Of a DNA stretch of 64,000 bases, positions 31,846 to 44,496 are shown piece after piece. The position numbers and the translations under genes are program-made. Every line of letters begins with the position of its first letter. The stretch's first letter is position 1. The notes under the pieces were generated by a model. The model made no database searches, was not told where the DNA came from, and worked only from the letters and a program-made list of their open reading frames with translations. The stretch covers positions 1,178,001 through 1,242,000 of the forward strand of contig NZ_CP022412.2 in the NCBI RefSeq assembly GCF_002222615.2. Direction: 5' to 3'. The DNA is from Bacteroides caccae. Its GTDB lineage: Bacteria > Bacteroidota > Bacteroidia > Bacteroidales > Bacteroidaceae.

Positions 31846-33366
31846 CTAATGAGGCATTTTGAATGAAGCTAGTTCCGGTTCGATATGTTCCTGCTTCATA
31901 ATATCCTCCATTCTTTTCACGATTTCCGGGTGGTATCTGGCAACATCTGTCTGTTCTCTGGGATCAGAATCCAGATCATATAATTGAATTTTCCTGTTTC
32001 CTTTAAAAATATTCAATACAATACCCTTCCATTTGCCCATTCGGACAGCTTTTTGGCCTCCGCTATCGGGAAATTCCCAATATAAGAAATCATGTTTATT
32101 CTGTTTTTTGTCTAGTAATTCCGGCAAAAAGCTGATTCCGTCCGTAGTCGGGCATTCTACTTTTGCAATCTCACAGAAAGTAGGCATAATGTCCCAAAAG
32201 GCACAGATGAGATCACTTTTACTACCGGCTTTTATCTTTTTAGGCCAACTGGCAATCATCGGAACACGAATGCCTCCTTCGCGGAGCGATGCTTTGCCCC
32301 AGCCCCATTCACTTTTGAATGGTTTAGCACTATCGAAAAAGAAAGAATCGCTTCCGCCATTGAAAGTCGGCCCGTTGTCACTGGTAAAAATGATGATGGT
32401 ATTGTCATAGATTCCCAGTTCTTTAAGTTTATTAATAAGTCCCCCGATCTGTTCATCCCAGTAGCTGATCATGGCAGCATAGGTTGCGCGAGGATAACGG
32501 CAGGGAAAATAATCTTTATTGCCTGTGTATGGTTTTTCATCTCCAAACTTGTTCACATAATGCTTTACCCATTTTTCCGGTGCTTGTAAGGGAACATGGG
32601 GAAGGGGCGTCGTCCAGAATAAGACGAAAGGGTTATCTTTAGTAAGGTCGATAAAGTTGAGTATTTCTTTGTACATCAGGTCCGGTGCATACTCATTGAG
32701 AGTATATTTCGCATAGCTTTTTTCTTCGTATGGGTCTGCACCTTTATCCAGTTTGGTGTGGGGGACTACCAATGGATTATTCAGATATTCCCGATGTTCG
32801 TTTCTATATAAAAATGGAGGGTAGTAGGTATGAGCTTCTCTTTGGCAATTATATCCGTAGAAAAAGTCAAATCCCATTTTGTTTGGGGTACTGGCAGAAC
32901 CGGGATACCCCAATCCCCATTTTCCGATACAGGCCGTTGTGTAGCCGGCTTGCTTCATGACTGCCGGAATCATTACCGTTTCTGCCGGAACGGGGCGTTG
33001 GCCTTCCAGGGTCGAATCAGCTAATACAGCTTTATGATTCCAAACATCTCCACGTGAAGCCATTTCGTCATTCCCCCGTATATAGGCGTGCCCGGTATGT
33101 AATCCGGTAAAGAGGACACAGCGCGATGGAGCTGACACTGCTGTCCCGGAGTAATGGTTGCTGAATGTCATTCCTTCTTGTGATAACCGGTCGATATTAG
33201 GAGTTTCAATTAACTGCTGGCCATAACAACCTAATTCCGATATACCCAGATCATCTGCAAGAATATAGATAATATTGGGCTTTTTCTTATTAGCTCCATT
33301 CTCTTCCGCAAAGGAAGAGAGTGGAGCTAATAGAGCAAGTCCAATCATAAGTTGATTGTTCTTCAT
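31846..33366 (-). CDS. Secreted sulfatase of the PUL
   Basis: 506 residues. N-terminal signal peptide (about 1-20), then the sulfatase N-terminal metal site NIIYILADDLGISELGCYG and the formylglycine motif S-A-P-S-R (VSAPSRCVLFTG, about residue 80). The modified residue is Ser, so activation needs the radical SAM maturase (anSME), the only route in anaerobic Bacteroides. IFTSDNGPTFNGGSD supplies further metal ligands. Removes sulfate from host or dietary glycans; subfamily not assigned. Eight bases after susD, last gene of the sigma-FecR-susC-susD transcript. Confidence 0.9.
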   Translation of the reverse strand: MKNNQLMIGLALLAPLSSFAEENGANKKKPNIIYILADDLGISELGCYGQQLIETPNIDRLSQEGMTFSNHYSGTAVSAPSRCVLFTGLHTGHAYIRGNDEMASRGDVWNHKAVLADSTLEGQRPVPAETVMIPAVMKQAGYTTACIGKWGLGYPGSASTPNKMGFDFFYGYNCQREAHTYYPPFLYRNEHREYLNNPLVVPHTKLDKGADPYEEKSYAKYTLNEYAPDLMYKEILNFIDLTKDNPFVLFWTTPLPHVPLQAPEKWVKHYVNKFGDEKPYTGNKDYFPCRYPRATYAAMISYWDEQIGGLINKLKELGIYDNTIIIFTSDNGPTFNGGSDSFFFDSAKPFKSEWGWGKASLREGGIRVPMIASWPKKIKAGSKSDLICAFWDIMPTFCEIAKVECPTTDGISFLPELLDKKQNKHDFLYWEFPDSGGQKAVRMGKWKGIVLNIFKGNRKIQLYDLDSDPREQTDVARYHPEIVKRMEDIMKQEHIEPELASFKMPH

Positions 33367-33374
33367 GGTGAATA

Positions 33375-35324
33375 TTAATAGAATGGATTTTGAATGATTT
33401 GCGGAGTCTTTTCCAGTTCACTGGCACTGATTGGCAACAGATATTGTGATTTATAGAAATGATTCGTTAATGTCATGTTGGGTTGTGGAGCTTTAAAGAA
33501 TTCCTCTACACTGGCTCCTTCAATATTCCAGCACAAGAAAGGTTCATCCAGTTTTTCCGCTATTTTCCAACGTCTCAAATCCCAAAAACGTTGTCCTTCC
33601 AGATAGAATTCTATTTGTCGTTCCTGGCGGACAAATTGGCGTAAAGTTTCCTGTTCATTTTCTTTTCCTTTCCATTCATCATTTGCATATTTCTGAATAG
33701 ACTCATCTACTCCCGGGATGCCTGCGCGTTTCCTTACTTTATCCATATATTCTTTAGCGATCTTGAGATTATTGCTTCCCCCAATCTCGATCAAGGCTTC
33801 GGCATAATTCAAGTACAGTTCCGCCAGCCGGAATGTGGGGAATGGATATTTGATAATGGCATTAGTAAATCCGGGATGTGTGAATTTCTTGTTAAGATAT
33901 CCTGTTACCGAATAGTGCACCGTCATATCTTTTTTGAAACCATGTGCTCCATTGAACAACATTCTTAATCCGCCGGGTACATAAGATTTGTTCAAAGGAA
34001 GTGCTTCTGCATTATATCGTGCTATTTCGTAGTTACCGTTATGGAATCCTATCCATGAATAGAAACGTGGTTCACGGTTAAAATGTAGTTTGATAGAGCG
34101 GTCATTCGGTCTGTCTTCATAATTATTCCCGTCAAAGTTTGCAGGTAGATAAGCTATTTGATAACGGTTAGGATAGTCATAGGTCTTGTCTTTATCGATA
34201 GGTAATCCATGCTCTGTATAAAAGAGTTCGACCATCTGCAAGGTAGGTGCAGTAGAGTTAGTCTGCGTGTACGGGATCTGTTTTGTCTGTCTGACTGACG
34301 AACGAATTTGTACACCGTATGTTGATTCGCCTCGATTATCTCCCCAGATGATTTCACATAGGTTCTGGTTGTCAATCGTACAATATCTGACTCTGCGCTG
34401 AGCTTTTCCGCTTTCGGTCTGGTCTGTGAATCCCGGTTTTTCTTGGGTTGGAGCTCCGGCTTCAACATCTCCGTATAGTTTGTAGCCTGCTTTTTCCGCA
34501 TTCTGAATAGCATCCAATGTCACTTCCGCACACTTCTCCCATTTCTTGACGTCGTATGTCTGTGAAATTAGATGTTTCCCATTTTCGTCAACGAAGTTAC
34601 TGTAAAACTCACTGTTTCCGTTGAATAAAGGTGAGGCAGCGTATAAGTGTACACGGGAGCGGAGAGCGCGTGCTACATGTTTGGTTGCCCGTCCGAAATA
34701 CATCGGATTATGAGCTTCAACCAGCCCCGGCATTGCTTCATCAAGCATTTGATCAATAAAAGCTACTACTTCATCGTAAGAACTTCGTGCCGGTAATTCG
34801 GATAATTTGGTATCCAAATCATATTTCTTCCTGATGATGAGAGTGGGACCGAATGCCTGCAAAGAACAGAAATGATAATAAGCAATTAGAAACTTAGCTT
34901 CTGCTCTATATATTTCCCTATCGGCTTCAGTATAAACTTGGGCTTTATCCAGAATATCCAGAAATTCATAGCATTGGCGGACCCCTTTCCATGTCGGCCA
35001 CCAACGGTGGGAAACGATTGAATTGTTAGTCGGGTTATAAAGCCCCATTGTGAACAACTGTTCCGGTTCGTTGGCTTTATAATAAGTAGTTACTTCTCCT
35101 CCGGTCAGTAATGCTGTCGGATACCAGCTTTGGTACGGCTGTGAATCTTGAGAAGTGCGGTTCATCGGCATATAAGTATAACACGAATAGAGAAATCCTT
35201 CGGTTTTGGACGGAGTGTTGTAAGAGTCTTCCAGTTTGGCACGTTCATCCGGCATTATATCCAGATAATTGCATCCGCTTGTTAAGATGCATAATACAAT
35301 GATGTAAATATATCTCAGTTTCAT
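33375..35324 (-). CDS. SusD/RagB-family surface glycan-binding lipoprotein
   Basis: 649 residues, lipoprotein signal with lipobox TSGC (Cys about residue 18). The TPR-like SusD fold is indicated by EAKFLIAYYHFCSLQAFGPT in the N-terminal half and the C-terminal LAELYLNYAEALIEIGG and VRQERQIEFYLEGQRFWDLR blocks, which are family hallmarks. It caps the partner SusC and binds the imported glycan or glycopeptide at the cell surface. 17 bases downstream of susC. Confidence 0.95.
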   Translation of the reverse strand: MKLRYIYIIVLCILTSGCNYLDIMPDERAKLEDSYNTPSKTEGFLYSCYTYMPMNRTSQDSQPYQSWYPTALLTGGEVTTYYKANEPEQLFTMGLYNPTNNSIVSHRWWPTWKGVRQCYEFLDILDKAQVYTEADREIYRAEAKFLIAYYHFCSLQAFGPTLIIRKKYDLDTKLSELPARSSYDEVVAFIDQMLDEAMPGLVEAHNPMYFGRATKHVARALRSRVHLYAASPLFNGNSEFYSNFVDENGKHLISQTYDVKKWEKCAEVTLDAIQNAEKAGYKLYGDVEAGAPTQEKPGFTDQTESGKAQRRVRYCTIDNQNLCEIIWGDNRGESTYGVQIRSSVRQTKQIPYTQTNSTAPTLQMVELFYTEHGLPIDKDKTYDYPNRYQIAYLPANFDGNNYEDRPNDRSIKLHFNREPRFYSWIGFHNGNYEIARYNAEALPLNKSYVPGGLRMLFNGAHGFKKDMTVHYSVTGYLNKKFTHPGFTNAIIKYPFPTFRLAELYLNYAEALIEIGGSNNLKIAKEYMDKVRKRAGIPGVDESIQKYANDEWKGKENEQETLRQFVRQERQIEFYLEGQRFWDLRRWKIAEKLDEPFLCWNIEGASVEEFFKAPQPNMTLTNHFYKSQYLLPISASELEKTPQIIQNPFY

Positions 35325-35341
35325 ATTTTATTATATATTTA

Positions 35342-38300
35342 TCAGTTAATAGTCATCTGAAAACCAACATTAAATGTTCTTTGAGTAGGATAGGACATAC
35401 CGGAGCCACCTCCCATTTCTGGATCCCATAATTTGAATTTAGAGAATGTTAGCAGGTTGTTGCCGCTGACATAAATTCTCATATTCTTGAAATTATATCC
35501 TATTTCCGCATTCTTGAGCTTTAAAAAAGCGGCGTTTCTCAGCCAGAATGTTGAATTCTGGTTATTATTTGTGTTATATGCCGTCGTGAGTCTGGGGTAT
35601 GATGCATTGGGATTAGGATTATCTGTTGTCCAGCATCCATCTGCTACGTAATCTAATATACCTCTTTTGGCGGTATTGTTATCGTTGGTGAAAGGATGGA
35701 ATCCGCTCATCATTAATGATACGCGTCCGGTTCCCTGAAAGAATAAAGAGAAGTCCAGATTTTTGTATTTAATGGAAGGGCCGAAACCATATACAATTTC
35801 CGGTACACTGGGATAACCTAAGGCAACTTTGTCATATTCATTGATTGCATTGTCCGTACCTCCTAATGCATTCGGAATATCTTTGTACTTAATATCACCG
35901 GGCATTAACGGCAGATTGGCAAATTGTTGCGGCAAACTATTGTTAATCATATTTTCGTCGGTAAATAATCCGTCCGCTACATATCCGAAGATTGTATTGA
36001 GTGAATGGCCGACTTTCAGACGGTTGGGATATAAGCTGAATTCCGGCTCATCCATTTCAAGTATTTTATTATGAGCAAAGGTGAACGTTCCCTTGAAAGA
36101 GACAAACAAGTCTTTGTTAATCTGGTTGTTGTAGTCTACACTGGTATCTATTCCCCAGTTACGCATCTTTCCGAGATTTCCTTGAACTGTAACATTACCA
36201 AGTCCCATGAGTGTCGGAATTGTTCCACGATCCATAAAGATTTCCTTTCTCACTTCTTTGAAAATGTCGGCAGAGAAACTGAATCCTTTCAATATTCTCA
36301 CATCAATACCGGCATTCCATTTCTCACCAACCTCCCATGTCAGGTTCGGATTGGCATATCTTTTCCATACAGGACCGGAGTTGGTGTGTGTCTGGTTACC
36401 GGTCCCGGTTGTGAATCCGGCTCCGGAGTTAGTAAGGTTCTCAAGGAACGTAAAACGTCCGGCTCCTGTCTGGTCATTACCGACAAGCCCCCACGATGCT
36501 CTTATTTTAAATTGCGGGATGATGTTTCTGAGCGGTTCCCAGAATTTCTCTTCAGACAGATTGTATCCGATTGCTACTGAAGGGAAGAAACCGAACTTCT
36601 TATTCTTCGGGAAGTTTTCAGAACCATTGTAGCCAAAGTTGAACTCGGCTAAGTACCTGCCGGCAAATCCGTAAGATAAACGTCCTGCTATACCTTGTTT
36701 CCTTCTAGGTAAGGATGTCAGCAAGTCCGAAGGGTTGTTAACGTCATTCTGTTCTTGATTATATAGGAACATGACATTGACTTTGTGCACGTCATTGAAT
36801 GTTCTGTTATAATCCAGGCTGGCTTGTAGATATAATCTACGGTTACCGCTATTGGAACCTCCGGTTTTAAGCTCGGTACTTTGTTCGTTGCCGATGATGT
36901 TTAAGTCGTATGTATCTTCTTGTGGATTATACATGGAAGTCTCATATTGGTTGACGTTGCAATAACGATACACTTTAGAATATGAATAGTTGTAATATGA
37001 AACAATAGCATTCAGTTTCAGTCCTTTCATAATCATCTTCAAGTCCTGATTAAAACGCAGGTTGGCTGTTACACTTGTAGAGTACGTGGAACTATAACCG
37101 GATACAAAATCGGCGACAGGATTGACATAACTTCCGTTCGGAGCACCAGATCTTCCTCCCCAACGGATGTGAGTGTCATCTTCCTGGCCGGGGAAACGGA
37201 TCGGAAAGTCTACCGGATTTGCATTGAGTGCACTTGAGAATACGCTTCCGGCACTACTATAAGGCCCGCTCCAGTCTCGTACCGACACATTTAGTCCTAG
37301 CGATATTTTAGTTGTATTGGTTGCCTTGATATTCAGATTATTGACAAAATCATAGTTGTAGACATTGATATTGTTGTTGAAGGAGTAGAAGTCTTTACTG
37401 AGTGATTTAAGATTACCGTCGCTGTGCTTGACGCTTGCACTCATAAAATAATCTACCCGGCTGCTTCCGCCACGGATATTAAAGTTGAACCGTTCGGCAA
37501 AAGTGTTTTTCTTGAACATCTCGTTGTACCAATCGATGTTGGGATACATATAAGGATTGACACCGTCTATTGTAGCATTAATCTTTTCGTCCGAATAGAT
37601 ATCGGTAGTCTCGGGAGTACGTGTCTGTGCCTCATTGTATAATCTCATATAAGTGATACCGTCTACCATTTTAGGAACATTTGTCAACTGTGATATAGCC
37701 CCTTCCACTCTAAAGTTAATGATCGGCTTTTTCAGATTTTCCCCATTCTTTGTCGTGACTACCATCACTCCGTTAGCTCCTCTTGTTCCATAGAGTGCTG
37801 TTGCCGTTGCATCTTTTAGTATTGAGAAGCTTTCAATTACTTCAGGATCGAGATTGTTCAGTTGGGTTGCGTCAATTTCCACACCGTCCAGGATGATGAG
37901 AGGATCAGTTGCGCCACTGAATGTAGAAGCACCACGAATCCAGAAACTGGCGCCGTCTGCTCCCGGTTCGCCACTTCGTTGTACGGCGATAACTCCTGAT
38001 AAACGTCCCGCAAAAGAAGAAGATAAACGTGAGGAAGGTACTCTTAGCTGTTCCGGGCGTATCTGTTGGATAGCTCCGACAAGACTTTCCTTTTTCTGCC
38101 CGATACCAAAGGCTGTGACTACAACCTCATCCAATGCCTTAGTGTCTTCTTCCAGTTGGATGTTGAGTATACTCTTCTTCCCGACTTTCACTTCTTGGGT
38201 GATATATCCCATAAATGAGACTATCAGGACCGGATTTTCTTCCTCAAGTTCAAGCTTGTAGAAACCTTCAATGTCCGTCAGAGCACCTGTCGTGCTGTCT

Positions 38301-38758
38301 TTAATTTTAATAGTTGCCCCGGTGATCGGTTGTTCGTCCTTATCCAATACAAATCCTTGTATTGTTTTTCTTTTAGAACTTTGCGGTTGAACTTTCTTTT
38401 GAGCTACTTTTTTGAGTGTAATCTGCCTGTTGTCTATTGTATATTCTACCGACATACCTTTAAATAGTTTGTCGAGTACCGGACGAATTGGTTGGTTCGT
38501 TACTTTAATAGATACCTTGCGGTTGGGATTAATGGTTTCTCCGTAATAGACGAAGATAAATTCGCTATTTTTCTCAATATGGCTCAGTACTTGTTTTAGA
38601 GGTACATTCTCGAAACTGAATGTGAATGTTTTTTCCTCTACATAGTTAGAGACGTCTTCTGCATAGACAGATAAGAAAGATGATAAAAAAATTGCCAGTA
38701 CAAACAGGAATTTGTATCTTTTAACACTCCTGCTTGTAGTAAATTTACAGTTTTCCAT
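35342..38758 (-). CDS. SusC/RagA-family TonB-dependent transducer with STN domain
   Basis: 1138 residues. After a signal peptide (about 1-33) comes an STN secretin/TonB short N-terminal domain (about 45-115, FSFENVPLKQVLSHIEKN), a carboxypeptidase-regulatory-like domain (about 133-210, GFVLDKDEQPITGATIKI), the plug from LDEVVVTAFGIGQKKE, and a 22-strand barrel ending in FNVGFQMTIN. The STN domain signals occupancy to the FecR anti-sigma factor encoded upstream, so this is both importer and sensor. A plus-strand sRNA candidate lies opposite its leader. Confidence 0.96.
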   Translation of the reverse strand: MENCKFTTSRSVKRYKFLFVLAIFLSSFLSVYAEDVSNYVEEKTFTFSFENVPLKQVLSHIEKNSEFIFVYYGETINPNRKVSIKVTNQPIRPVLDKLFKGMSVEYTIDNRQITLKKVAQKKVQPQSSKRKTIQGFVLDKDEQPITGATIKIKDSTTGALTDIEGFYKLELEEENPVLIVSFMGYITQEVKVGKKSILNIQLEEDTKALDEVVVTAFGIGQKKESLVGAIQQIRPEQLRVPSSRLSSSFAGRLSGVIAVQRSGEPGADGASFWIRGASTFSGATDPLIILDGVEIDATQLNNLDPEVIESFSILKDATATALYGTRGANGVMVVTTKNGENLKKPIINFRVEGAISQLTNVPKMVDGITYMRLYNEAQTRTPETTDIYSDEKINATIDGVNPYMYPNIDWYNEMFKKNTFAERFNFNIRGGSSRVDYFMSASVKHSDGNLKSLSKDFYSFNNNINVYNYDFVNNLNIKATNTTKISLGLNVSVRDWSGPYSSAGSVFSSALNANPVDFPIRFPGQEDDTHIRWGGRSGAPNGSYVNPVADFVSGYSSTYSTSVTANLRFNQDLKMIMKGLKLNAIVSYYNYSYSKVYRYCNVNQYETSMYNPQEDTYDLNIIGNEQSTELKTGGSNSGNRRLYLQASLDYNRTFNDVHKVNVMFLYNQEQNDVNNPSDLLTSLPRRKQGIAGRLSYGFAGRYLAEFNFGYNGSENFPKNKKFGFFPSVAIGYNLSEEKFWEPLRNIIPQFKIRASWGLVGNDQTGAGRFTFLENLTNSGAGFTTGTGNQTHTNSGPVWKRYANPNLTWEVGEKWNAGIDVRILKGFSFSADIFKEVRKEIFMDRGTIPTLMGLGNVTVQGNLGKMRNWGIDTSVDYNNQINKDLFVSFKGTFTFAHNKILEMDEPEFSLYPNRLKVGHSLNTIFGYVADGLFTDENMINNSLPQQFANLPLMPGDIKYKDIPNALGGTDNAINEYDKVALGYPSVPEIVYGFGPSIKYKNLDFSLFFQGTGRVSLMMSGFHPFTNDNNTAKRGILDYVADGCWTTDNPNPNASYPRLTTAYNTNNNQNSTFWLRNAAFLKLKNAEIGYNFKNMRIYVSGNNLLTFSKFKLWDPEMGGGSGMSYPTQRTFNVGFQMTIN

Positions 38759-38765
38759 AATTTTG
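38734..38765 (+). promoter_or_regulatory. Antisense promoter at the 5' end of susC
   Basis: On the strand opposite susC, TAATTTTG (38758-38765) is a full -7 match, with TTG (38734-38736) about 21 bases upstream. No protein gene follows on this strand. Confidence 0.5.
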
Positions 38766-38770
38766 TAATT

Positions 38771-38848
38771 TTAAGAACGCTACTTAATGTTGATAGGTAA
38801 TGTTTTTAGCTAATCCGAATAATACTACGAATATTATTCGGATTTTTC
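38771..38848 (+). ncRNA. Candidate DonS-like cis-antisense sRNA of the PUL
   Basis: Region between the antisense -7 box and a perfect 13-bp hairpin (arms 38812-38824 and 38832-38844, 7-base loop) followed by five T residues. Predicted transcript is about 75-80 nt and fully complementary to the susC mRNA leader. In B. fragilis the known sRNA DonS has this size and position beside an ECF-controlled PUL and represses the susC homologue. Identification here rests on layout only. Confidence 0.45.
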
Positions 38849-38895
38849 GTGTGTTTTCATATCATAGGCATATTCGATGTTTTTAAGATTAATAA

Positions 38896-39981
38896 TTAGT
38901 TTTCTTTTCTCATGTGGACATAATATATATTATTCTTTTCTTCTATGGTAACAGGTGCCGTTATGGCAATAGTTGACAATACTTTCTGTAACCCTTCATT
39001 CAAATCAAGTTTCCCGTGCATCGGCATTGTTTCTATACCTGTATCATAAATAATTTCTTTTCCGTAATAGCGGTGTAACTGCTCTAATACTATACTTAGT
39101 GCCTGATTATTCAATGTCAGAATGCCGTCAATCCAGCTGATATAATCGAGCGCATTGACTTTTTTCTTGTCAGTATATGTTCCTTCATTCAGAGCAATCA
39201 GCTCATTAGGCATCAGCGTATAATTCTGTTCCTTTTTGTCTTTTACCTCCACCTTTCCCCGTACTAATACGACTTCGGCTTTAGTATCTTCTTTATAAGC
39301 TTTTACGTTGAAGGCAGTACCCAGCACATTTACAGTAAAGAGTGATGTCTTTACTATAAAGGGGATGTTACTTTCCTTATGAGTCACATCTATGAATATT
39401 TCTCCTTCGACGAATATTTCCCGATATTCCTTTTTGAACTTTTGGGGATAAACAACCTTCGTTCCGGAATTAATATCCAGTTGAGAGCCATCAGACAATT
39501 GTAATTTGATATGTTTCCCCATTGGTACAATAATCTGGTTCATGGGATGTTCTTCTTCTCCTTCCCCGGTACTCTGTCGGGGCGCGATTTTCTTCTCGTC
39601 GATTAATAAAGAACCGTCTTGTGCATAAGCCACGGTAGCTTTTTCATCTACTTTTATCTTCGTTCCGGTAGCCGTAATCAGCTCAATATGTTTCTCCGGA
39701 GTATTTGCAGCAGATACAAACTTTTGAACATCTGCCGAATGAATCGTATCATAAGCTTGATTATTCAGCCAGAATACAAACAGGAGAGAAGCAGCAGCAA
39801 CAGCTGTCACCGGTATAAGCCAGCGATAGACGGGAATATGCTTCTTCTTGTCTATTTGCTCACTGATTTTGCTCCATACCTCGTCTTCTGCTTCTTGGGA
39901 AGCGGAACTTTCTCTCTTTCGAAGGTAGTGGAACAACCGTTCGCTCATTTGTTCAATATTTCCTTTTTCTTCTTTCATCAT
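38896..39981 (-). CDS. FecR-type anti-sigma factor
   Basis: 361 residues. Cytoplasmic anti-sigma part (1-60), one membrane helix (about YRWLIPVTAVAAASLLFVFW, 63-82), periplasmic FecR domain (IIVPMGKHIKLQLSDGSQLD onward) and a C-terminal DUF4974 domain (LNNQALSIVLEQLHRYYGKE) that meets the SusC STN domain. It holds the ECF sigma factor until SusC reports substrate. Two adjacent ATG codons (39981, 39978). Upstream lies the bipartite element shared with the M60 gene. Confidence 0.93.
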   Translation of the reverse strand: MMKEEKGNIEQMSERLFHYLRKRESSASQEAEDEVWSKISEQIDKKKHIPVYRWLIPVTAVAAASLLFVFWLNNQAYDTIHSADVQKFVSAANTPEKHIELITATGTKIKVDEKATVAYAQDGSLLIDEKKIAPRQSTGEGEEEHPMNQIIVPMGKHIKLQLSDGSQLDINSGTKVVYPQKFKKEYREIFVEGEIFIDVTHKESNIPFIVKTSLFTVNVLGTAFNVKAYKEDTKAEVVLVRGKVEVKDKKEQNYTLMPNELIALNEGTYTDKKKVNALDYISWIDGILTLNNQALSIVLEQLHRYYGKEIIYDTGIETMPMHGKLDLNEGLQKVLSTIAITAPVTIEEKNNIYYVHMRKEN

Positions 39982-40042: not shown

Positions 40043-40597
40043 TTATTTATTTTCAAATAAACGTCGTAATTTGACAATAGCTCTCCCTATCAGGTTCATG
40101 GATGAGTGCACTGTAATACCTAATATTTCGGCAACTTCCTCCCATGTAAGTTCTTTGATATAGTACAAATAAACGGCATGACGCTGATTGGCGGATAATT
40201 TCCGGTAGGCCTCCTTTAGCAATTTGCTTCTTTCCAGATAAGTATCGTCGTGTGCAAAGAGTCCTTCCAGTTCATCATCTGTCAATGGAATCTCAAACTC
40301 TGCATTTTCTAACTGGTACGTCTCTTTCATCGAGGACATCTTATATACGAGATTGTTTCTAAGGGCTGTATATAAGTAAGATTTGACATGGTCTATGGGG
40401 CGGAATTTAGAGTTGTTGAATACGTTGACAAAGAGATCCTGAATACAATCTTTTATTAATTCTTCGTTTGTGGAGATTGTATGTCCATAATTCAACAGGT
40501 GCGGAAAGTAACGCCGGTACATTATTTCTAAAGCCAGCTTGTCTCCTTTGATTAGCAGAACCCATAATTCCGCATCCTCTTTAGTTTGATAATGCAT
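40043..40597 (-). CDS. ECF sigma factor of the PUL
   Basis: 184 residues from the ATG at 40597, which has AAGGAGAG at proper distance; the upstream ATG at 40684 would overlap the transcription start predicted from the -7 box at 40689-40696 and the one at 40612 lies on the ribosome site. Region 2 (ALEIMYRRYFPHLLNYGHT) and region 4 (LTWEEVAEILGITVHSSMNL) are clear. Pairs with FecR 61 bases downstream; would activate susC and possibly the M60 transcript. Confidence 0.92.
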   Translation of the reverse strand: MHYQTKEDAELWVLLIKGDKLALEIMYRRYFPHLLNYGHTISTNEELIKDCIQDLFVNVFNNSKFRPIDHVKSYLYTALRNNLVYKMSSMKETYQLENAEFEIPLTDDELEGLFAHDDTYLERSKLLKEAYRKLSANQRHAVYLYYIKELTWEEVAEILGITVHSSMNLIGRAIVKLRRLFENK

Positions 40598-40688
40598 TTT
40601 ACTCTCCTTCATACACGTGTACTCTGTGTACTTTGTTATAATTGTACTAGAATGATTAACAACTGTTGTATTTTGTAGCAACATGTGG

Positions 40689-41785: not shown

Positions 41786-41822
41786 GGTGTTTTTTTTAGA
41801 TTGTTATTGATTATAAATATAT

Positions 41823-41842
41823 ACTGTTGATTAATAGGGCCA
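41823..41842 (+). repeat. Inverted-repeat partner, downstream side of M60 gene
   Basis: ACTGTTGATTAATAGGGCCA; matches the reverse complement of 44476-44496 with one mismatch and one missing base. Confidence 0.6.
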
Positions 41843-41857
41843 TACTAATCATTGATT

Positions 41858-44431
41858 TTATTTACGAGTCATTTCGATTCGTACACCGTCCGCTTGTACA
41901 GCGTATAATTTGACACGATCCGGTGAAATAGTATTGGGAATTTCAAACTGGAAAGAAGTACCGAAATATTTCAGGTTATCATTCTCTTTTATTTCAAAAG
42001 CTACTGCCTGTTCTCCGTTTTGAACATTCACCTGATGTCCGGATATAGTATAAGTAATTTGCTTGGTGATTTTCATGTCCTCTGCAAATTGAGTGAAGTA
42101 ACCGACATCCGGTGGAGTCGTATCGAGTCCGGGGTCACCTTTCTTTCTGTCTTCCAGATAGTAGAAAGCGTGTTTGGGAGCCGGAAACTGCTTCATAAAT
42201 TCTTTCGTTTCCTTAATCATGGCGTCCGTGACAATGTAATTGTACGTACCGTATTGGTTGACCTTCATAGAGATCGGGACAAAGAACCCCCACCTTTCAA
42301 AGAAATCTGTCAGGTTCTCGTTAGCAGCCCGGCAAGCCATTCTGGCATACATCATTTGATTTTCTCCCGGGTCTTGGGTTGATACACGGTTTTCGCGCAT
42401 CAATTTGAAAAGAGTAGGGAAGAATTGGGGATTATATCCGCAGCGATGATAGTAATTCCATAATTGCCAGTTCATGCGTGCATGCATTTCCGGGTCCTCT
42501 CCCTGATAGTCGGTTCCAAAGTCGCACCAGGCTTTATTTTCTACACATCTTCTGAATACCAATGTGGCTTTCTTGACGTTAGCCGCATATTCCGGTACAG
42601 CCAGTTCTGTCCCTCGGGAGCAGTTCTGACCGAACTTATAAATCGTGTAATTGGAGAATAAATTGTTGGAGGACTCTGTTGTGCTGGCCCAGTTAATGGC
42701 ACCTTGGTGTACATGACCGATCTCGTGTGCCGGTCCCCAGGAATTTCTGGAGGCCATAAGATAAGATTTGCGCAGGATATCCCCCAGAACGGTATATACA
42801 AATCCTATCCTGCCTTCCGAAGCCCACATATATCCGCCTTCGGGAGATATGGCAAAAATATGATTATTCATTTGTTTGGGGTATACGTCTTCAATACCCA
42901 TCAATTCTTGTTGCCATTGGATCATATTGTCCCAAAGTTCGATAGACGACAGGATATCATACGGCACTGCTGCTTTCAGTTGCTTATGATGAAAATAGAG
43001 GATGATGGCGTTGCCGATGACACAGAAATATTTATAGTCGGCTTTGTCTATTAACTCCTTGTATTTCTCATTGGTCTGATGCTCTTTTAAGGAAAAGAAT
43101 CCGCATACTTTGCCTCCGCCTAACGGGATATGGATTTTAATCGGTTGTGCATCGGGGTTTTGTATGTTCGTATTGTACATTACAAACAACATACCTGTTT
43201 GCTTGGCTGTCAGTTTGTTGACTCCTTCCTTCAGGGGATAGATATCACCGTTGACAGAAGTTTGTGCATAACCTTTGCTTGTTTCTTCCCCGATATTCTG
43301 GATTGAAATACTTTGCCCGTGAGTGTCTCCTACCAGTACGACTACCTCATCTCCTTCGTTCACATAGATTCCTGTAGGATTGTCGAGATCTCCGTATTTC
43401 CTCGTCATCAGCTTATCCGCCCATTCGTCGGCGGAGCTGTAAGGACAATATTCCCGTATCCGGAATTCCTTTTCCCATTTATTATAACTATCGTCTTTTA
43501 AAGCCGATGCCGTTTGTATGAAGAATTCGGGTAATGCTTCTATCTGCTCTTGCGTGACATCAGGTTTTATTTCGGAACAGGTAATATCTGTAAAGACAGT
43601 CAGCAACTGTTCTTCGAGAGTGTTTTTCTTGTTCTTTTTGAAGAACTGCATTTCATCACAACTGACATGTCCGTTTTTCCCGCTATGAACCTCAAACTTT
43701 ACTTTGGTGGCTTTTACCGGAGTTTTGAGTGAGGCAATGGAGGGAGAGTTGCGCATATTGAAGTCATAGCTTCCCTGATGCACGTATTCCGTGTTTTCTT
43801 TCGTCTGCGTATATACGTTAAATTTCCCGAATGTGCCGTTTCCTGAATTAGTGTGATAGATGAAATAATCAATATCCGTATTACCCTCGAAATAGTATTC
43901 CAGGATAACCGGGAAATCGGCCGATTGTCCCCATTTACTGTGGTAAGGTACTCCGCCGTCGGCAATAAATTTATCATCAAAGGAATGCTCGATGCTCCGG
44001 TCCGGGTCCGTTTCCTCTTCGCTCGCCTTACCGGCATAGGGTTTTACCTGTATATCTTCTTCAATTACAATGTCACTGGCGGAATATTGGGTGACTGTAA
44101 TGGTATAATGTTTAGTTGCAGAGGATACTTTAACGTTGGCGGTACGTCTGTTCGAACCGATATTGGCGTCTACTGATATTTTCAGACTGTTTTTGAATTG
44201 TGTGGCCCTGAGCCATTTATCAGTAACCTTCGCTTCCCAATTATCTACGTTTAAGTTTGTGGTGATAGAGATGCTGACGTTTGCTGCATCTTTACTGAAG
44301 TTCTGTATCAGATCCTCTGTCGCGATTTCAAAGATTTCCGTTATACTTTCTTCCGCGTTATCTTTACATCCGTATAGACACAACGATATAAAGAGGCAGA
44401 TGAGGCTTAAACAATATCCGGAGTTTTTCAT
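41858..44431 (-). CDS. M60-family (enhancin/mucinase-like) peptidase lipoprotein
   Basis: 857 residues from ATG 44431; a TTG 60 bases further up is in frame but gives no signal peptide. Lipobox LYGC places it on the membrane, probably at the surface. An N-terminal BACON-like beta domain (about 25-115, ending KHYTITVTQYSAS) precedes a discoidin-like carbohydrate-binding region and the M60 catalytic domain with zinc motif AHEIGHVHQG (about residue 566). M60 peptidases cut mucin-type O-glycoproteins. Upstream lies the bipartite element shared with fecR, and imperfect inverted repeats flank the gene. Confidence 0.88.
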   Translation of the reverse strand: MKNSGYCLSLICLFISLCLYGCKDNAEESITEIFEIATEDLIQNFSKDAANVSISITTNLNVDNWEAKVTDKWLRATQFKNSLKISVDANIGSNRRTANVKVSSATKHYTITVTQYSASDIVIEEDIQVKPYAGKASEEETDPDRSIEHSFDDKFIADGGVPYHSKWGQSADFPVILEYYFEGNTDIDYFIYHTNSGNGTFGKFNVYTQTKENTEYVHQGSYDFNMRNSPSIASLKTPVKATKVKFEVHSGKNGHVSCDEMQFFKKNKKNTLEEQLLTVFTDITCSEIKPDVTQEQIEALPEFFIQTASALKDDSYNKWEKEFRIREYCPYSSADEWADKLMTRKYGDLDNPTGIYVNEGDEVVVLVGDTHGQSISIQNIGEETSKGYAQTSVNGDIYPLKEGVNKLTAKQTGMLFVMYNTNIQNPDAQPIKIHIPLGGGKVCGFFSLKEHQTNEKYKELIDKADYKYFCVIGNAIILYFHHKQLKAAVPYDILSSIELWDNMIQWQQELMGIEDVYPKQMNNHIFAISPEGGYMWASEGRIGFVYTVLGDILRKSYLMASRNSWGPAHEIGHVHQGAINWASTTESSNNLFSNYTIYKFGQNCSRGTELAVPEYAANVKKATLVFRRCVENKAWCDFGTDYQGEDPEMHARMNWQLWNYYHRCGYNPQFFPTLFKLMRENRVSTQDPGENQMMYARMACRAANENLTDFFERWGFFVPISMKVNQYGTYNYIVTDAMIKETKEFMKQFPAPKHAFYYLEDRKKGDPGLDTTPPDVGYFTQFAEDMKITKQITYTISGHQVNVQNGEQAVAFEIKENDNLKYFGTSFQFEIPNTISPDRVKLYAVQADGVRIEMTRK

Positions 44432-44475
44432 GGTAATGTTCTTTGGATTAAAATTAATATTACTGCTTATATTGT

Positions 44476-44496
44476 TGGCCCTATTTATCAAGCAGT
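44476..44496 (-). repeat. Inverted-repeat partner, upstream side of M60 gene
   Basis: Minus strand ACTGCTTGATAAATAGGG followed by CCA; 19 of 21 positions agree with 41823-41842 in opposite orientation. Confidence 0.6.

Follow-up and report, generated by a model that had tools for sequence, protein, structure and literature searches.

DonS and a set of PUL-associated cis-antisense RNAs of Bacteroides were reportedly described by Cao et al. in 2016. As summarized in a later study (PMC7366714), the DonS family comprises antisense RNAs of 78-128 nt that are divergent to the susC genes of mucosal-glycan PULs and lower susC; the same study counts ten DonS-like RNAs in B. thetaiotaomicron, five of them confirmed by Northern blot, and gives the canonical sigma-ABfr promoter as the commonest kind (52%) among the cis-antisense RNAs of this species. 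Repression by DonS was shown in B. fragilis, and its mechanism is described as unknown in PMC11697453. A subsequent atlas includes 32 PUL-associated antisense RNAs of B. thetaiotaomicron. Some of these correlate negatively with susC and others positively, and because of the latter repression may not be general (PMC10994844).

The locus analyzed here lies in the genome of Bacteroides caccae, a single contig of 4,570,803 bases (NZ_CP022412.2), within a stretch of 64,000 nucleotides (positions 1,178,001 to 1,242,000) that we call the window. Its genes, transcribed on the minus strand in the order ECF sigma factor, FecR, SusC, SusD and sulfatase, are as follows.

41858..44491, minus strand: M60 peptidase-family protein, upstream of the ECF gene
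40043..40684, minus strand: ECF-type sigma factor
38896..39981, minus strand: fecR, anti-sigma factor type
35342..38758, minus strand: susC, TonB-dependent receptor with an STN domain, the sense gene
33375..35324, minus strand: susD
31846..33366, minus strand: sulfatase, downstream of susD

Upstream of the ECF gene are found a sulfatase-like metalloenzyme, the M60 peptidase and a GH36 enzyme; the presence of two sulfatase-like genes together with M60 peptidase and GH36 is in keeping with a host-glycan-type locus. The gap between fecR and susC (38759-38895) has 137 bases, and on its opposite strand we identified the predicted elements of a short antisense RNA.

38734..38736, plus strand: possible -33 element TTG, within susC codons (weak; spacers scattered)
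38758..38765, plus strand: -7 box TAATTTTG of a predicted sigma-ABfr promoter (exact in 26/48 related loci, one mismatch in 12/48, window locus included)
38771..38847, plus strand: predicted cis-antisense RNA of about 77 nt, start placed from the box to within about 2 nt
38771..38809, plus strand: 5' stem-loop of the predicted antisense RNA, from its fold
38812..38844, plus strand: terminator hairpin with a 13-bp stem, matched by covariance model R1 at 38805-38854
38843..38847, plus strand: terminator U-tract (at least 5 T among the 8 bases that follow the stem, 43/48 loci)

An earlier note on this DNA had placed a full -7 box at 38758-38765, and TAATTTTG is indeed found there as the sole plus-strand TAnnTTTG within 38600-38900. 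A single base is shared between the box and the susC ATG, the first base of the box being the complement of the A. Of the 45 long frames in the window that we treated as genes, this susC is the only one with a box at its start. The -33 candidate, at a spacer of 21, is weak because TTG spacers are scattered over the 26 exact-box loci, with the commonest value (19) seen in five of them. The hairpin has a loop of 7 nt and is followed by TTTTT. Its 13-bp stem and T-run had been proposed in the note and were recovered, with the RNA end shifted from 38848 to about 38847. The score of this hairpin was reached by none of 1000 shuffles of its own stretch, and the surrounding 96 nt fold with a z of -3.15, equalled by one of 200 shuffles. 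Box and intrinsic terminator would provide the RNA with a promoter and a 3' end of its own. The proposed size also agrees with our prediction of 77 nt antisense to the susC leader, whereas the proposed coverage of the whole fecR-susC gap was wrong (77 of 137 bases lie under the predicted RNA). By the same procedure, predicted lengths range from 67 to 119 over 26 loci, and the 5' parts of the 26 RNAs fold with a mean z of -2.7 relative to mononucleotide shuffles (-2.16 for the window RNA).

By its features, the window RNA fits as a further member of the already known DonS-type antisense RNAs. As read from the sequence, it would be antisense and divergent to a susC homologue, in a PUL with genes of host-glycan type (ECF/FecR, sulfatases, M60 peptidase, GH36), and its predicted 77 nt fall just under the 78-128 nt of the family, with a start placed to within about 2 nt. 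The orientation to susC is the same as for the DonS-like RNAs of B. thetaiotaomicron; those, however, rest on RNA-seq and some Northern blots, while the window RNA is predicted from sequence. DonS of B. fragilis belongs to a different PUL in a different organism, and the two are likened by description. Less expected were the register of the box to the start codon and the combination, seen over the family as a whole, of a GC-rich loop with an AT-rich neck. No Rfam family matched at cut-off at the antisense locus, and the single at-cut-off match in the window is a tRNA. A more general likeness exists to CopA, a plasmid antisense RNA (Rfam RF00042), which is likewise antisense to a leader and has a hairpin loop that could meet a complementary loop. 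The CopA model scores 17.8 bits at the window locus against a cut-off of 60 (E 1.2), which we take as a chance match and not as a claim of homology.

We compared susC genes with and without fecR within the same genome, where 24 FecR and 56 SusC matches were found. One SusC gene was left out for want of an ATG, and the other 55 were divided into 16 FecR-linked genes (one, L080, with another gene between) and 39 others. A box was counted when an exact TAnnTTTG began at -1 of the ATG, and a terminator when it was antisense and started 30-100 nt upstream of the ATG; where several ATGs were possible the boxed one was chosen, with cases and controls treated alike. The complete pair precedes 5 of 16 FecR-linked susC genes and none of the 39 others (Fisher p 0.0013). 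Counted alone, the box gives 6/16 against 1/39 (p 0.0016) and the antisense terminator 8/16 against 2/39 (p 0.0003). The pair is missing from 11 of the 16 FecR-linked genes of this genome. Five of these 11 (L021-L025) have short fecR-susC gaps of 35-57 nt that contain no box and no terminator; they look like another arrangement, a second class of fecR-susC junction.

The analysis was extended to related loci downstream of fecR. A FecR scan of genome contigs returned 41 pattern matches, none of them a relative. When 99 other genomes were compared, the FecR with the best score was 41% identical to that of the window, and the highest identity among the matches listed was 43%; the loci compared are therefore related rather than orthologous. 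FecR proteins of 71-89% identity were found only as database proteins. We collected 93 fecR places, 24 from the own genome and 69 of those listed for the other genomes (29 with their loci and the following 40 by rank, and so those most like the window FecR), and removed six without a downstream frame, 18 with gaps below 90 or above 330 nt, and one duplicate. The remaining 68 distinct gaps of 90-330 nt include the window locus; one has no hairpin at all, and the gene after fecR is not always susC (plainly not at L002 and L031). Strong hairpins, defined by a score of at least 22 and a start 40-100 nt from the ATG, occur in 48 of these 68 gaps as compared to 9 of 1005 shuffled ones, and the median distance from their 3' ends to the following ATG is about 85 nt. 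At -1 of the start codon, the box is exact in 26 of the 48 and has one mismatch in 12, while exact boxes at 44 other offsets number from zero to two in the same loci. The ten loci without a box even at one mismatch count against its general presence. Among the 19 further loci that have a hairpin of some kind, two have the box. The conservation of box and hairpin that the earlier note had called for at orthologous loci is thus seen at related ones (hairpin in 48/68, box with at most one mismatch in 38/48), and the box-terminator layout opposite the susC leader is not due to chance.

An inverted repeat can form a hairpin in both complementary RNAs, but a G·U pair in one of them is an A·C clash in the other, and the position of wobble pairs can reveal the strand under selection. 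Our hairpin search scored G·U on both strands alike. In the stems of the 48 loci, we counted 68 G·U pairs on the side of the antisense RNA and two on the side of the sense RNA (49 and two, respectively, within the innermost ten pairs); 34 loci have antisense-type wobbles only, two have sense-type only and 12 have neither, and since the loci are related to each other these counts are not independent. A T-rich tail, with at least five T among the eight bases that follow the stem, accompanies the antisense hairpin at 43 of 48 loci and the sense hairpin at one. Because of both the wobbles and the tails, we conclude from the sequences that selection acts on the antisense strand in this hairpin family. 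The stem of the window locus contains no wobble and gives no signal for either strand; the test rests on its relatives.

A covariance model (R1) was built from an alignment of 47 hairpins, with the window locus left out. All 12 pairs of its consensus structure show two-sided changes; the sequences were preselected for a hairpin, and the changes are support rather than proof. In the window, R1 matches 38805-38854 on the plus strand with 37.2 bits (E 3.9e-7), as compared to 21.9 bits on the opposite strand of the same locus and 17.1 bits for the next match elsewhere in the window. In the own genome at E up to 1, ten distinct places were found, nine of them at fecR loci (seven training sequences, the window locus, and one independent place at 898362), and the tenth is a plain terminator outside any fecR locus. 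The training locus L010 was missed by this whole-genome scan, although L096, the susC locus that belongs to it, reaches 24.4 bits. Matches with E of 0.01 or less are present in 62 of 100 genomes, an upper bound that includes the training genomes and a repeated terminator. This terminator, containing GGGCTGTCTAACAATGCAAATGT, accounts for 12 of the 14 matches in genome G056 (L280-L291), where seven of the 12 copies lie within 135 bases of a contig start, and it looks like a dispersed repeat. With plain terminators matched in both the own genome and G056, the hairpin model is of limited use as a genome-wide detector. We read out 39 R1 hits, namely nine in the own genome and 30 out of a set of 55 matches, chosen because they came with a locus; CATAnnTTTG lies within 75 nt in 21 of them and is absent from 18.

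On the sense strand beyond the terminator, we noted two stretches that could belong to the promoter of susC.

38863..38869, minus strand: GCCTATG, candidate -10 part of an ECF-sigma promoter of susC
38885..38892, minus strand: TTAATCTT, candidate -35 part of the same promoter

When a single mismatch is allowed, GCCTATG occurs in this place in 21 of the 48 loci, compared to 0.8 in mononucleotide shuffles, and seven of these 21 also have, 11-16 nt away, a stretch that differs from TTAACCTT by no more than one base. Among the susC leaders of the own genome, GCCTATG is exact in 5 of 11 long-gap FecR-linked, none of five short-gap and 4 of 39 other leaders; with one mismatch allowed, these numbers become 5/11, 1/5 and 10/39. 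The exact occurrences in 4 of 39 leaders without FecR led us to reject GCCTATG as an exclusive mark of FecR-linked promoters, and because of them its assignment is by inference only. GCCTATG and the TTAACCTT-like stretch may together form the ECF promoter of susC, in which case the susC 5' end would lie just before the hairpin. Little is known of ECF promoter motifs in Bacteroides: as of 2020 there was none for the B. thetaiotaomicron ECFs (PMC7366714), and in 2025 two of these were linked to a non-canonical -30/-10 motif (PMC12596196).

The loops of the 48 family terminators are richer in GC than those of 34 other terminators (0.68 versus 0.33, p 1e-8), and their necks are poorer (0.24 versus 0.41, p 8e-4), in a comparison where a T-run was required of the 34 controls and not of the 48. 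The window loop, CTACGAA, has G or C at 3 of 7 positions. One octamer, ACGCCAAT, forms the loop of 10 of the 39 R1 hits although their stems are of several kinds; these hits are listed here.

Loci with the ACGCCAAT loop: L236, L253, L255, L257, L259, L263, L266, L267, L275, L276

A U-turn (YUNR) motif is not common in the loops, being found in 4 of 48. The idea that each locus has a private loop serving as a barcode was rejected: when the 39 R1 hits are compared in pairs, loops alike at up to one mismatch are seen in 9 of 96 pairs from one genome and 93 of 645 from two genomes, and genome G012 has two copies of ACGCCAAT.

The reading that we favor, with a probability of about three in four, is that a short DonS-type cis-antisense RNA lies opposite the susC leader and represses the operon until induction; the DonS-type interpretation made earlier gains support in that box and hairpin are kept at related loci and the pair is found at 0/39 susC genes without fecR. 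The sequences show a promoter box and a terminator that hold fixed positions and are concentrated in the leaders that follow fecR, as well as antisense-strand selection in the family; from this we infer that the RNA is transcribed, pairs with the leader, represses and gives way upon induction. Driven by the housekeeping sigma factor, the antisense RNA would begin on the opposite strand, a short distance upstream of the susC ATG, and would cross the susC leader for about 77 nt until its own terminator stops it short of the likely promoter of susC. Without the glycan, it would pair with the leader of basal susC mRNA, at about -13 to -89 of the AUG, and the duplex would clash with ribosome loading or invite cleavage, leaving leaky transcription to yield little protein. 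A glycan signal would then free the ECF sigma factor, susC transcripts would exceed the antisense RNA, and the operon would be expressed. In this way the predicted RNA probably holds the glycan-uptake operon down until the sugar arrives. A further suggestion, tentative and with the odds against it, is that across Bacteroides the antisense gene is locked in the susC leader (its box fused to the start codon, its end set before the likely ECF promoter), the start of the one gene evolving jointly with the promoter of the other, and that the loop serves for recognition, either by pairing with a loop of the susC leader or by binding an RNA-binding protein common to these loci. The role of the loop is suggested because of the GC-rich loop, the AT-rich neck and the recurrence of ACGCCAAT on different stems.

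The main rival to an action of the RNA is polymerase collision, in which the antisense promoter interferes with transcription from the ECF promoter, the terminator shields that promoter and the RNA itself is inert. In its favor, the promoters (at positions assigned from sequence motifs) would face each other at a distance of some 85-100 nt, and the terminator would lie immediately ahead of the ECF candidate; a DonS mechanism described as unknown (PMC11697453) leaves room for such an effect. Interference, however, has no need of a structured RNA, and the 5' parts of the 26 RNAs are structured too (mean z -2.7); nor does it need the GC-rich loops of the family (0.68 versus 0.33), although the window loop, with 3/7 GC, weighs little in this respect. 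We regard collision as unlikely, yet deserving of attention.

Much less credit is due to the proposal that the hairpin acts within the leader of the susC mRNA, as an attenuator, stability element or riboregulator, and that the antisense box is incidental. The inverted repeat can fold in the sense RNA as well, and the reverse strand still scores 21.9 bits with R1, but this proposal is very improbable in view of the wobbles (68 antisense versus two sense), the single sense-side T-rich tail among 48 loci, and a box pinned to the start codon. Transcriptional noise, with the hairpin an ordinary terminator of spurious antisense transcription, would be in line with the caution of Ryan et al. about chance promoters in low-GC genomes (PMC7366714); a placement of box and terminator fixed in dozens of divergent loci, and rare before susC genes without FecR, makes it scarcely credible.

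Enzymes of the GH18 kind are expected in N-glycan loci such as don. Five R1 hits, picked by eye, are followed downstream, at 5.5-8 kb, by a GH18 match, which exceeds the family cut-off in one of the five, and none of them is known to be the don locus; they share the layout in part, as the box is exact in two, has one mismatch in two and is absent from one. Among 80 loci matched by a protein of the window, none is named B. fragilis or B. thetaiotaomicron, and the nearest is from Bacteroides congonensis (84% identity). Our literature search, which did not extend to the original DonS report, found no earlier mention of the start-codon register, the strand test or the loop feature.

ECF/FecR systems control many polysaccharide loci of gut Bacteroides, with 26 sugar-linked ECF/FecR pairs in B. 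thetaiotaomicron alone (PMC3878776). The anatomy described here provides exact testable positions, namely the box just upstream of the AUG, the terminator loop and the candidate ECF promoter. The box-terminator rule helps to find such RNAs from sequence beside fecR; the hairpin alone is not specific genome-wide.

Several individual loci are worth recording. The independent R1 place in the own genome (L239, G000:C1:898362-898411) is a hairpin of the same kind at a fecR end, with a CATAnnTTTG box 52 nt away that marks the beginning of a short open frame; an ECF sigma factor gene follows, with susC only after it, and the antisense element seems to be separated from its susC. At L009 (G000:C1:318806-318854) the antisense element scores 42.1 bits, and the adjoining SusC-like frame ends about 140 codons after its ATG, with no SusC match listed there. 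A palindrome at 41814-41865, between the sulfatase-like and M60 peptidase genes and reaching a few bases into the end of the latter, gives weak R1 matches on both strands (17.1 and 12.6 bits). Finally, the loops of L030 and L037 read TTGGGAGT and that of L035 is the reverse complement, ACTCCCAA, in hairpins that are otherwise alike, as if the hairpin core had been flipped between them.
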